Shown: piece after piece, positions 14,116 through 26,853 of the stretch
How the letters are laid out: each line of letters opens with the position of its first letter
Position numbering within the stretch: position 1 is the first letter of the stretch
NCBI GenBank assembly: GCA_017461665.1
Contig: JAFTXI010000031.1
Location: forward strand, 17,841-81,840
Length of the DNA: 64,000 bases
Source: Bacteroidales bacterium
GTDB taxonomy: Bacteria; Bacteroidota; Bacteroidia; Bacteroidales; F082
Reading direction: 5' to 3'
The notes under the pieces: model-generated
Seen by the model: only the letters and a program-made list of their open reading frames with translations
Database searches by the model: none
Told to the model about the DNA's origin: nothing
Made by a program: the position numbers and the translations under genes

Positions 14116-14257
14116 AAATTACAACTATCAACATCCTTTTGTCAAGTGTTTTACAATATAATATTCTTATTTTAACTATTTTTAACGTAATGTTAATGAA
14201 ATTAAGAAATGTTTGTTAATTTGTGTTAACAACGATTTTAAGATTGAGATTTTAATA

Positions 14258-14265
14258 TTATCTTT
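14258..14265 (+). promoter_or_regulatory. -7 element TATCTTTG upstream of the 6S-like RNA
   Basis: Exact TAnnTTTG match about 90 nt before the first stem of the RNA; the only strong rightward -7 element in this 580-nt gap. Confidence 0.45.
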
Positions 14266-14350
14266 GCAAATATTTTTAAAACATTTGTATTATGTAAAAC
14301 GTTGAATGACATATAATTTTCAAAATAGTGTTTACTATTTGTTCGGCATT

Positions 14351-14503
14351 TGCTCCTAAAACCTGAGAAATTTTACAAGCATAACATTACGACGAATGAG
14401 TAAAAAACACCTATGCACTTTTTAAGCGTGGGCGGTTTGTTTCGTAATGTTAGGTAATCTCAGGACCTTGGAGTATGGATTTGAATCGTCCATGCTTTTT
14501 TTT
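14351..14503 (+). ncRNA. Long-hairpin structured RNA, 6S-like candidate
   Basis: Nested complementary blocks: CTCC (14353-56) with GGAG (14470-73), CCTGAGA (14362-68) with TCTCAGG (14458-64), and AACATTACGA (14383-92) with TCGTAATGTT (14442-51). A roughly 49-nt apical part contains ACACCTATGCAC and GCGTGGGCGG. The result is one rod with internal bulges, followed at 14473-14503 by a terminator hairpin and eight T. A long rod with a bubble is the hallmark of 6S RNA, and a Bacteroidetes form (6S-Flavo) is known; I cannot align to it here. Structure well supported, identity tentative. Confidence 0.55.
14473..14503 (+). terminator. Terminator of the 6S-like RNA
   Basis: GTATGGA (14473-79) pairs with TCCATGC (14489-95), then T8 at 14496-14503. 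Confidence 0.75.
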
Positions 14504-14536
14504 ATATGTCGTTACGATTTAGAAGAGAGAAACGAG

Positions 14537-14725
14537 ATGAGGTCAAACATTCACATAGGACTGATTATCAGAGACGAGTTGCGTCGTCAGAAGAAAAGCA
14601 ACCGCTGGTTTGCCGAGCAGCTCTGTGTGAATATACGCACCGTGAACAAGATTTTTCTCAAAGACATAATAGACAGCGAGCAGCTGTTGTGCTTGGTGTC
14701 AAGGCGAGAACTACGACGCAGCTGA
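14537..14725 (+). pseudogene. Truncated XRE-type helix-turn-helix protein
   Basis: MRSNIHIGLIIRDELRRQ, then RWFAEQLCVNIRTVNKIF and IDSEQLL, match the start of the common Bacteroidales small HTH regulators (NIHIG..I...L....R...WFA..L....VYKIF). In intact members the helix set continues with a hydrophobic second half; here it turns into SRRELRRS and stops at 62 aa. I read it as a remnant broken at about 14690. Sits 34 nt after the RNA terminator. Confidence 0.5.
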
Positions 14726-24400: not shown

Positions 24401-25009
24401 TTATTTATTTTCAGATTTATATTGTTCAAATGATTTGGTCATTTGTTCTCTATACTTCATTTCATTAAAACCGATTTTCATTTTTTCATCTTCAGAAAGA
24501 ACGTCATTAACGGCGCTACTTACTTTTTCTGACAAATCTACTTTTGAAATTTGAATAGCAACATAGCACTCAATATGACCATCTTCACCAACAGCACCAA
24601 AACGTTGACATACGGCTCTTGTATCATTTACAACTACATCTATAATTTGGTCGCCAGCCATTGTAACTTTTCTTTCAATGTCATTACCTTGGTTATTTCC
24701 AATGGTTTGTGAATAATTGCTTACCATACCTTTATAAGCATGTTTAATTTTCATACGAACTTGTTCTTGTGCATTTTGTAAAGCCCATTTAAGCAATTCG
24801 CCTTTTTGGTTCATTGAACCTCTGAAAATACCTGTTGCAGCAAATTCAGTATCAGTATCATAAACTGTACAAGGTACTTCAAACACTTCACCAAATGGAT
24901 TGACACCGCTGTTGTTTTTATTGTCAACAACTGCTTTAGAGGTTCCACCGCATGATGTGAATGCTACAGCTAAAGCTATAACTGCTAATGATAATAATGT
25001 TTTTTTCAT
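24401..25009 (-). CDS. LPP20-like lipoprotein
   Basis: 202 aa. Lipobox AVAFTSC (Cys20), a short Asn-rich linker, then a single alpha/beta domain TVYDTDTEFAATGIFRGSMN, LKWALQNAQEQVRMKIKHAY, ERKVTMAGDQIIDVVVNDTRAVC, IECYVAIQISKVDLSEKV. Such domains occur in LPP20 and FlgT-N type envelope proteins. First gene of the leftward cluster of four. The 107 nt upstream lead to the tandem structured elements at 25.1-25.55 kb, so those may control it. Confidence 0.65.
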   Translation of the reverse strand: MKKTLLSLAVIALAVAFTSCGGTSKAVVDNKNNSGVNPFGEVFEVPCTVYDTDTEFAATGIFRGSMNQKGELLKWALQNAQEQVRMKIKHAYKGMVSNYSQTIGNNQGNDIERKVTMAGDQIIDVVVNDTRAVCQRFGAVGEDGHIECYVAIQISKVDLSEKVSSAVNDVLSEDEKMKIGFNEMKYREQMTKSFEQYKSENK

Positions 25010-25115
25010 TTTTCTTTGCTCTTGTTATATCCCATTAGAGCCCTTCGGTTTTGAATTATTAATTTTAATTAGGTTTATTATTATTTTCAATTCAGTTTTC
25101 AATTTTCAATTCATA

Positions 25116-25280
25116 AAAAAAGCGTGAACCAAACTCAATGTTTCGTTGTCAAGGCATCGATACCTAAACACTACATGAGTTCAGTCCACGCTAAAGCACG
25201 CAGACGTTCCCGCTTTACTCTTGTGGGTGTTTGAAGGTGTCGAAGTTTCAAAGACAAGATCTAAGCAAAACGCTTTTTCC
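25116..25280 (-). ncRNA. Structured RNA element, copy A (strand inferred)
   Basis: Pairs visible: AGCGTG (25122-27) with CACGCT (25188-93), AACTCA (25133-38) with TGAGTT (25177-82), and the hairpin AGGCATCGATACCT (25153-66). The element ends are also complementary (AAAAAGCGT with ACGCTTTTT), competing with the first stem for the same strand. The distal half shares CGCTTTACTC, GTGTCGAAGTTTC and AAGACAAG with copy B. Read leftward it ends CACGCTTTTTTT, terminator-like. A leftward promoter (25627-34) lies upstream of both copies. Strand choice is inference. Confidence 0.5.
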
Positions 25281-25368
25281 TTTTTCAATATGTTTTATAT
25301 TTCATCAATCTATCATAAGCATTATTTTTTCACATTTTCAACTTTCAGTTTTCAATTTTCAATTCATA

Positions 25369-25551
25369 AAAAAAGCGTGAACTTGAACTCATCATTTGTC
25401 TTTGAGGTCTTCGACTACCCACCCTTCAAATAATTGAGTAAAGCCCACGCTAAAACAGCGCAGGCGTTCTCGCTTTACTCCTGAGGGGTGATTTTGCTTG
25501 AAAGTGTCGAAGTTTCGAAGACAAGGTCAAAGCTAAAACGCTTTTTTATAT
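25369..25551 (-). ncRNA. Structured RNA element, copy B (strand inferred)
   Basis: Same plan as copy A with different bases in paired positions: AGCGTG (25375-80) with CACGCT (25446-51), ACTCA (25388-92) with TGAGT (25436-40), and a GGTCTTCGACTACC-type hairpin (25407-20). Ends AAAAAAGCGT/ACGCTTTTTT again pair. The 37 nt leading into the element are identical to those before copy A (25094 and 25347), showing a duplication of about 253 nt period. Confidence 0.5.
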
Positions 25552-25563
25552 GTTGTTAATTGT

Positions 25564-25580
25564 GCGTAAAATAATTACGC
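25564..25580. repeat. Small hairpin GCGTAA-AATAA-TTACGC
   Basis: Perfect 6-bp stem between the leftward promoter and structured copy B. Confidence 0.5.
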
Positions 25581-25626
25581 TAATTCTTCATAGGCTCTAT
25601 ATTTTATTACTACATTTTTATTTTTG

Positions 25627-25634
25627 CAAATATA
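25627..25634 (-). promoter_or_regulatory. -7 element TATATTTG for the structured-element transcript
   Basis: Reverse complement of CAAATATA, with TTTTG about 17 nt further upstream (25652-56). Points leftward into copies B and A and then the LPP20-like operon. Confidence 0.55.
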
Positions 25635-25689
25635 TGATATTTTTTTTAACTCAAAATTTTTATTTGGTTAATTTTAGTCATGTATAATA

Positions 25690-26853
25690 TCAACCAAAAA
25701 CATCTTTCATCTGCATTAAAGCTTTCTCGACGACAGAACGCGGACATGCGAGATTCACTCTCATACAGCATTCGCCATCTTTACCAAAGAGATTTCCGGA
25801 ATTAAGTCCTAAGCCAGCCTCGTGAATCATCTTCCTATTCAGTTCTTCGTCGCTGTAACCATAGTCTTTGAAATTCAACCAAATCATATATGTAGCCTCT
25901 GTCTCATGAATCCTGACCTTAGGCATTTCCTTACGAATAAAATCTGTAGCGAAGTCAATATTACCTTTTATATAATTAATGAGTTGCGAATGCCATTCGT
26001 CGCCTTTCTCCATTGCAGCTTTGGTAGCAATCTTACCGAAGATATTTCCAAGATCTGATTCCGTAGAATGAACATAATCAACAAATTTGTTTCGCAATTT
26101 TTCGTTCGGTATGATAACGGTAGATGTAGCCATTCCCGCGAGGTTGAACGTCTTACTTGCTGCATGAGCGGTAATGCTGTTATGGGCAAATTCTTCCGAC
26201 AGAGAAGCAAATGGCGTATGTTTAAAACCAGGCATAACAAGGTCGCAATGAATCTCATCGGAAAAAACCAAGACATTGTTTCTCATACAAATCTCTCCTA
26301 ATCTAAGGAGTTCCTCTTTCTTCCATGACCTTCCAACTGGATTGTGAGGATTACACAAAATCAACATCTTAGCCGTCTTCGCCTGTTTCTCCAATAAATC
26401 ATAATCCATCACAAAACCATCTTCAGTGTCGATAAGCGTATTTTGCACGAGCTTTCGATTATGATTATTCACAGCATAGAAAAATGGATGATAAACCGGT
26501 GGTTGAATAATTATCTCGTCACCTTCGTTTGTCAGTCCCATCACTGCCATGTTAAAAGCACTGACAACTCCTGGAGTAAAAGCCATCCATTCTTTTTTCG
26601 TCTTCCATTGATGGTGACGTTCAATCCATTGCGCAATAGATTCGTAATACTCATCTTCGCGAAACGTGTAACCATAAACATCGCCTTTCGCTCTCTCGAT
26701 GACAGCTTCCCGAATAAAATCGGCAGTAGGAAAATCCATATCGGCGACCCACATAGGAATGACATCGGCTTTTCCAAAGACATCTTCTCTCTTATCGTAT
26801 TTAACACATTCAGTATTTCTACGATCAATAACTTTATCAAAATCGTATATCAT
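25690..26853 (-). CDS. MalY/PatB-type PLP-dependent C-S lyase
   Basis: 387 aa, fold-type I aminotransferase. Begins YDFDKVIDRRNTECVKYD, then PMWVADMDFPTADFI, the family hallmark. CNPHNPVGRSW carries the substrate Asn, VFSDEIHCDLVMPG the PLP Asp, and SITAHAASKTFNLAGMATS the PLP Lys (SKTFN). C-terminal YMIWLNFKDYG and NLACPRS (Arg that binds carboxylate). These enzymes split cystathionine or cysteine to pyruvate, ammonia and a thiol; the annotation aminotransferase is common but lyase is likelier. Stands alone. Confidence 0.88.
   Translation of the reverse strand: MIYDFDKVIDRRNTECVKYDKREDVFGKADVIPMWVADMDFPTADFIREAVIERAKGDVYGYTFREDEYYESIAQWIERHHQWKTKKEWMAFTPGVVSAFNMAVMGLTNEGDEIIIQPPVYHPFFYAVNNHNRKLVQNTLIDTEDGFVMDYDLLEKQAKTAKMLILCNPHNPVGRSWKKEELLRLGEICMRNNVLVFSDEIHCDLVMPGFKHTPFASLSEEFAHNSITAHAASKTFNLAGMATSTVIIPNEKLRNKFVDYVHSTESDLGNIFGKIATKAAMEKGDEWHSQLINYIKGNIDFATDFIRKEMPKVRIHETEATYMIWLNFKDYGYSDEELNRKMIHEAGLGLNSGNLFGKDGECCMRVNLACPRSVVEKALMQMKDVFG

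Follow-up and report, generated by a model that had tools for sequence, protein, structure and literature searches.

A predicted family of structured leader RNAs with competing helices, mostly ahead of exported-protein genes in Bacteroidota

The leader region and its two element copies

The window, a 64,000-nucleotide (nt) stretch of a Bacteroidales genome (contig JAFTXI010000031.1 of assembly GCA_017461665.1), contains a spacer between two leftward genes (25010-25689) that carries two copies, A and B, of a structured element on the minus strand. The copies are 75% identical overall, have identical 39-nt 3' flanks lying 253 nt apart, and both fold better than shuffled sequences on this strand (z of -3.25 for A and -4.65 for B); the two copies with one shared plan described in an earlier note on this DNA are thus present. 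Comparison with homologous sequences makes us nearly certain that the element represents a real, conserved family of structured leader RNAs without a match in Rfam 15. To model it, an alignment (A1) of 34 sequences, taken from the matches of the DNA search described below, was folded into a consensus with RNAalifold and converted into a covariance model of 179 positions (R1). Helices are named P0 to P5 and T, and the promoter elements are given as TTTG and TAnnTTTG, which we take to be the Bacteroidota-type promoter; ORF stands for open reading frame.

25652..25655, minus strand: TTTG, putative -33 element of a Bacteroidota-type promoter
25627..25634, minus strand: TATATTTG, putative -7 element; homologues show an enrichment of this motif 61-120 nt upstream
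25580..25591, minus strand: mini-ORF of copy B, ATG AAG AAT TAG
25564..25580, minus strand: small hairpin P0 of copy B, GCGTAATTATTTTACGC
25368..25547, minus strand: copy B of the structured element, R1 match of 134.5 bits
25539..25547, minus strand: 5' strand of P1 in copy B, AAAAAAGCG
25436..25450, minus strand: apical strand of copy B, GCGTGGGCTTTACTC, common to P5 (antiterminator-like) and T (terminator-like)
25375..25393, minus strand: 3' strand of helix T in copy B, GATGAGTTCAAGTTCACGC
25368..25374, minus strand: U-run of copy B
25305..25316, minus strand: mini-ORF of copy A, ATG ATA GAT TGA
25115..25279, minus strand: copy A of the structured element, R1 match of 91 bits
25176..25192, minus strand: apical strand of copy A, AGCGTGGACTGAACTCA, 5' side of helix T
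25122..25137, minus strand: 3' side of helix T in copy A, TGAGTTTGGTTCACGC
25115..25121, minus strand: U-run of copy A
24401..25009, minus strand: first gene behind the leader, encoding a predicted lipoprotein of 202 amino acids
14322..14502, plus strand: third, divergent copy, R1 match of 45 bits, with a start-stop ORF (ATG TAA) at 14292-14297 and TATCTTTG at 14259-14266

The plus strand also folds well (z of -2.75 for A and -6.16 for B, for B even better than the minus strand), as an imperfect palindrome can do. We assign the element to the minus strand because of the promoter motif, the gene order and the R1 score, which for copy B is only 27.4 bits when read on the plus strand. At the leftward promoter that the earlier note had placed at 25627-34, the TATATTTG motif is present, together with the upstream TTTG; the strand and leader position proposed in that note agree with homologues, which show same-strand genes downstream and a promoter motif upstream. 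No TAnnTTTG motif was seen by eye between copies A and B, and the two would lie in series within a leader of ~610 nt, counted from the presumed start. A scan for sigma-70-type promoters gave 8 sites in 24950-25720, versus 3.1 expected, several of them upstream of copy A; these are not of the Bacteroidota type.

The gene behind the leader had been taken for the start of an LPP20-like operon. It does look like a lipoprotein gene, but its product has no LPP20 match in Pfam at E up to 0.01, where only a sub-threshold match to DUF6567 appeared. Ahead of its start codon (25010-25060) stands CCGAAGGGCTCTAATGGGATATAAC, and a CCGATGNGCCGATGG-like stretch occurs at this place in 15 of 122 homologous leaders. 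The third copy has a promoter motif and a bare ATG-TAA upstream, and a short ORF downstream of it, from 14537, looks in our own reading like a small helix-turn-helix protein that is not exported.

Conserved fold and competing pairings

In the consensus fold, P1 pairs a 5' A-run-GCG with a 3' CGC-U-run, and P2, P3, P4 and P5 make up a long imperfect hairpin. On the 34-sequence alignment, which was built from sequence alone, 36 pairs are formed in 95.8% of cells, compared with 37-55% in slid controls, and 22 of them change on both sides. The covariation score is 0.424, versus 0.195 for shuffles (0 of 500 as high) and at most 0.137 for slid partners; as the 36 pairs come from the RNAalifold consensus of these very sequences (40 pairs, 4 of them dropped), the structure is favoured against slid versions. 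P1 varies little, with one pair showing changes on both sides.

Further counts refer to a set of 122 elements, consisting of the sense R1 matches in loci L107-L225 and the two main window copies; the set excludes antisense rows, the matches truncated at a locus end in L136 and L184, the third copy of the window and loci from whole genomes. Our own tree-aware test, run on 96 non-redundant rows of 120 elements, placed 5 column pairs above every value of 12 null alignments, three of them in P2, one in P3 and one in P4. Next in rank come the fourth pair of P2 (E about 0.17) and a pair in register with P4 (E about 1.6) that forms in only 66% of rows. Compensatory changes in homologues, with P2, P3 and P4 beating the tree-aware null, confirm what the earlier note had seen in the window, namely stems that keep pairing while their bases change. 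The long-range pair that it had singled out as covarying (AAACAC/GTGTTT in A, CACCC/GGGTG in B) is helix P4, which is supported across the family.

The 3' end, CACGCTTTTTTT, is able to pair both with the 5' AAAAAAGCG, forming P1, and with an internal GCGTG strand, forming the alternative helix T. In T, the ~19 nt preceding the U-run and the apical strand (mostly GCGTGGGCTTTACTC) are joined by varied pairing solutions, examples being GAGTTTTGTCCGCGC, AGTAAAGCC, AAGCCCACGC and GTCCCACGT. At 19 loci from a search across the phylum (see below), the apical strand is more variable and its partner varies too (CTATACT/AGTATAG in L251, GTAAC/GTTAT in L259). Since T uses the 3' strand of P5, which is the apical strand, and the 3' end that holds the 3' strand of P1, it excludes both P5 and P1. 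A median of 12 apical bases is paired to the 3' end (111 elements), the hairpin has a median energy of -27 kcal/mol (96 elements), and a U-run directly follows the stem, with at least 6 T in 8 nt in 107 of 114 elements.

A permutation test of T used 136 of 141 rows (122 + 19) and was not corrected for relatedness. Among 98 distinct elements, the own pairs total -1673 kcal/mol, versus -1511 (standard deviation 15) when partners are swapped, and 0 of 200 permutations were as good; the same holds (0 of 200) for 18 of the 19 phylum-search loci. The own pair is better than the mean swap in 89 of 98 elements and 16 of 18 phylum-search loci. Of the latter set, 16 of 18 come from other orders (L249, L250 and L264 belong to the same order, L250 having dropped out), and two of the 18, L256 and L257, are mis-anchored at the 3' end and were kept in. 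The mutually exclusive pairings of the 3' end noted earlier for the window copies therefore both recur across the family, with T partners that coevolve. A plain terminator was rejected because P1 and P5 are conserved too. The predicted structure combines a stable hairpin directly ahead of a U-run, as in an intrinsic-terminator attenuator, with a competing antiterminator that has a strand in common with it, both conserved as judged by P5 pair counts and the T permutation; read from sequence, the arrangement of P5, T and U-run is a terminator/antiterminator architecture.

A further pairing reaches beyond the U-run. The 5 nt just ahead of the (N)CGC-U-run (segment a) have an exact complement (segment b) within ~60 nt downstream in 58 of 114 elements. 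Exchanging the downstream parts between elements gives 4.6% (at most 9.9%), a test likewise uncorrected for relatedness, and shuffling them gives 3.2 of 114. The two segments change together (TGTCC/GGACA, GTGCC/GGCAC, GTCCC/GGGAC, GCACC/GGTGC), and 12 of the 58 have a third segment with the sequence of the first, shortly after and ahead of the start codon. The a:b helix excludes T. It crosses P1 and would thus form a pseudoknot; the idea that P1 and a:b are mutually exclusive was dropped, as crossing helices may coexist in this way.

Flanking motifs, downstream genes and distribution

The promoter motif could be counted for 115 of the 122 elements. TAnnTTTG occurs 104 times in these 115 upstream regions, with 81 occurrences at -120 to -61 on the element strand, versus 42 occurrences without such a peak on the other strand. 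Between motif and element, GC[CT]NATG followed by an in-frame stop after one to six codons is found in 102 of 120 elements, GC[CT]NATG being missing in the other 18. These mini-ORFs include 3 of the bare ATG-stop type and 62 of the type ATG-NNN-stop, with 16 different middle codons. A stop within five codons of the ATG is in frame in 100 of 102, whereas the two alternative frames have one in 17 and 26. Of shuffled tails behind the ATG, 42% lack a stop in ten codons. The sequences are related and hence not independent events. Where both the promoter motif and GC[CT]NATG were found (n=74), the ATG lies 25-28 nt behind the motif in 34. The main window copies have three-codon versions, and the third copy has ATG TAA. 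In relatives from other orders the mini-ORF was not seen by eye, and the promoter motif there is often near P1. For the small hairpin P0, fold z averages only -0.87. Two-codon minigenes such as lambda bar are likewise ATG-codon-stop ORFs; the mini-ORF of the element differs in standing near the 5' end of a structured leader and in its free second codon.

With a threshold of at least 70 amino acids in view and starts from our own ORF caller, a downstream ORF was found for 114 of the 122 elements, two of which are the window copies ahead of the same gene. It lies on the same strand in 106 of the 114, and 75 of these 106 genes start 19-107 nt behind the element. Export signals (signal peptide or lipobox), called by our own hydrophobicity and lipobox heuristic rather than SignalP, were assigned to 90 of the 106, compared with 161 among the 545 remaining ORFs in these loci. 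Pfam was searched with 92 downstream proteins, namely that of the window gene and those of 91 further same-strand genes out of 104; the 13 left out include L177, L165, L151, L119 and L207 (no export signal) and L178 and L148 (unclear). Among the 25 of 43 families listed, BspA-type leucine-rich repeats (6), PEGA (6) and resolvase (3) recur, and scattered other matches include subtilase, peptidase C10, BACON and beta-barrels, also helicase-type domains. Mean column identity of the target proteins is 5%. The downstream genes have no common pathway and mostly a common address.

At two syntenic sites (L029, L033, L035; L024, L030, L041, L042), flanked by genes that we named by eye as ATPase and valyl-tRNA synthetase and as epimerase-type, the leader is kept, yet different species have different genes following it, a pattern resembling gene exchange downstream of a fixed leader. 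At L166, L172 and L224, from metagenome-assembled genomes (MAGs) titled Tannerella, Tannerellaceae and Bacteroidales, the element precedes an apparent serine recombinase gene instead of one for an exported protein, possibly on mobile elements. In a Rikenella MAG (L129:1730-2200) and in Millionella (L151:2622-3103), it begins ~150-190 nt behind the RNase P RNA gene. One contig (G175:C66, L239) has two near-identical units of element and exported-protein gene in tandem, 1.1 kb apart.

A DNA search over 100 genomes, including that of the window, found matches in 28 at E up to 0.01, mostly at ~70% identity, with a third place matched in the own genome; in the DNA search of the own genome, A and B were the only clear copies. 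R1 matches 10 places there at E below 0.01. In the genus of the window, that of Candidatus Limimorpha, a cut-off of E up to 0.01 gives matches in 95 of 99 genomes and a maximum of 23 in one genome. Among 295 evenly drawn Bacteroidales genomes, 100 have matches at E up to 0.001, representing 69 of the 183 genera sampled. Across the phylum, 36 of 395 genomes match at E up to 0.0001, 32 of these 36 being from other orders of the class. Match counts at E up to 0.001 include 26 in a MAG labelled Alistipes senegalensis, 12 in Candidatus Limimorpha caballi, 4 in Alistipes sp. dk3624 (one of them at NZ_CP045651.1, 11128-11290) and 2 in Millionella massiliensis. A pattern scan of genome contigs gave at least 119 stretches, and among those listed all but one have Bacteroidota titles; the one, L115, is an element copy in a contig labelled Synergistales bacterium MS502-76, for which mislabelling, contamination and transfer are indistinguishable. 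Carriage by phages or plasmids was rejected, as one query each found no match among 50,697 phage and 72,556 plasmid records.

The earlier note had proposed an Rfam covariance search of both copies. A scan of the window with Rfam 15 at gathering cut-offs found only 3 tRNAs; at E up to 10, the region 25000-25700 came near no family's cut-off (best, IS009 with 17.6 bits against a cut-off of 117), and the best score around the third copy (14200-14600) was 16.4 bits. No match lay over the element at 19 and 14 homologous loci at E up to 1, or at 18 loci at gathering cut-offs. The candidate favoured beforehand, Bacteroidales-1 RNA (RF01693), resembles the element in being a structured RNA of Bacteroidales (PMC2864571). 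It was ruled out because neither copy matches it, even at E up to 10, RF01693 being assumed to be among the 4227 models. Flavo-1 (RF01705) has no match in the 19 phylum-search loci at E up to 1. DUF805b RNA (RF02914), a cis-regulatory motif of 35 nt in Rfam, lies ~30 nt behind the element in some leaders of the family (L215:2834-2869, minus strand, above the cut-off; L084:1438-1472, minus strand, and L229:1710-1746, plus strand, below it). It is a separate module, as two matches above the cut-off in the own genome adjoin no clear element. A description of the element was not found in the open-access papers searched, a search that did not extend to the candidate lists in the supplements of PMC8040213 and PMC9723704; these papers report, respectively, 3161 RNA candidates from human microbiomes, most of them in Bacteroidetes and some of them palindromic, and 64 structured 5' regions.

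Proposed mechanism and alternatives

On this anatomy, from which both strand and regulation are read, the element is probably a cis-acting bistable leader of the attenuator type, that is, a terminator/antiterminator switch mostly of exported-protein genes. Read-through (ON) would correspond to P1 together with P5, and termination (OFF) to T with its U-run, as found in the Bacteroidales-type set. A signal, perhaps tied to translation of the tiny 5' ORF, would shift the balance between them. Once polymerase has moved past the U-run, segment b could pair with segment a, crossing P1 as a pseudoknot and blocking T. Known attenuators and riboswitch-type leaders are similar in their position in the 5' leader, in two exclusive helices with a common strand and in a U-run after one of them. 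Unlike them, the element has up to 26 matches per genome, stands before unrelated genes, mostly for exported proteins, has a pseudoknot partner beyond the U-run and has a far more stable non-terminator fold. The mixed target genes do not suggest a small ligand such as a riboswitch would bind.

Several results weigh against such a switch. Of the switch logic set out in the earlier note, the exclusive pairings hold, as they recur and coevolve; the predicted energies do not follow it. The P1-P5 fold averages 20.5 kcal/mol better than the T state and is favoured in 95 of the 96 elements evaluated (out of 111), T winning only in window copy A, so that the terminator needs a kinetic or bound-factor explanation. 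In the phylum-search loci, at least 6 T of 8 are present in just 7 of 15 scored and the U-run is often short or broken; thus, termination cannot be the mechanism everywhere. A terminator scan, restricted to loops of 3-8 nt, called no leftward site. Looser definitions of a:b separate less well from controls: with 6 pairs and G-U allowed, the values are 77 of 118 versus 0.38 by swap and, in the phylum-search loci, 9 of 18 versus 0.35, and a loose criterion gives 92 of 111 versus 74 by shuffle. Finally, at E up to 0.001 R1 leaves 195 of the 295 Bacteroidales genomes unmatched, the products of 16 of the 106 same-strand genes lack a clear export signal, and in 8 of the 114 cases the downstream gene is oppositely oriented.

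The main rival is a leader RNA that is bound by a protein or small molecule and acts on translation, stability or localisation of the mRNA, with T and the U-run as a secondary or processing signal. We regard it as unlikely. It would fit the greater stability of the P1-P5 fold, the phylum-search loci in which the U-run is broken while T persists, usually with a gene downstream, and targets with a common address but no common domain (the commonest Pfam family reaching 6 of 92). The coevolution of T partners and the U-runs in nearly all elements of the Bacteroidales-type set are hard to explain without termination.

Clearly less probable is a family of independently transcribed, trans-acting small RNAs (sRNAs), each with a promoter, an RNA of ~250 nt and a terminator, whose neighbouring genes are reached by read-through or by chance. 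The own promoter motif, the terminator-like 3' end and the many paralogues per genome recall the FopS sRNAs of Bacteroides, which are described as multi-copy and trans-acting, with a canonical promoter and a Rho-independent 3' end (PMC11697453). According to the same text, FopS sRNAs are short, consist of a single-stranded 5' seed and a single terminator hairpin, and are deposited in Rfam; the element, with its five-helix fold and no Rfam match, is therefore not one of them. The orientation, close start and export signals of the downstream genes, as well as the conserved pairing with a segment beyond the U-run, argue against sRNAs in general.

A mobile DNA hairpin landing ahead of genes, such as a miniature inverted-repeat transposable element or a recombination site, is very improbable: the imperfect palindrome, the multiple copies, the near-constant leader before different genes at some syntenic sites and a few near-identical pairs such as G175:C66, where element and gene are duplicated together, would suit it, but most matches to the window copy are only ~70% identical rather than near-identical and dispersed, stems show compensatory changes, a promoter motif lies upstream, the orientation relative to genes is fixed, and the phage and plasmid records gave no match, target duplications not having been searched.

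Extended to the phylum, the switch proposed here would amount to a Bacteroidota-wide RNA regulon of the exported proteome with ~26 copies per genome at most, in which the start-stop ORF reports the translation (or envelope) state, the exchange between P1/P5 and T decides on transcription, and the pseudoknot locks the ON state; we put this forward tentatively, as a possible though doubtful scenario. Bacteroidota dominate many gut communities, and to our knowledge few cis-regulatory RNAs have been described in them. Such a widespread leader RNA, often in several copies ahead of genes for surface proteins and lipoproteins, would delineate a large, so far unseen regulon and would give a direct handle on export control in Bacteroidota, for which the two competing helices provide clear, mutable predictions.
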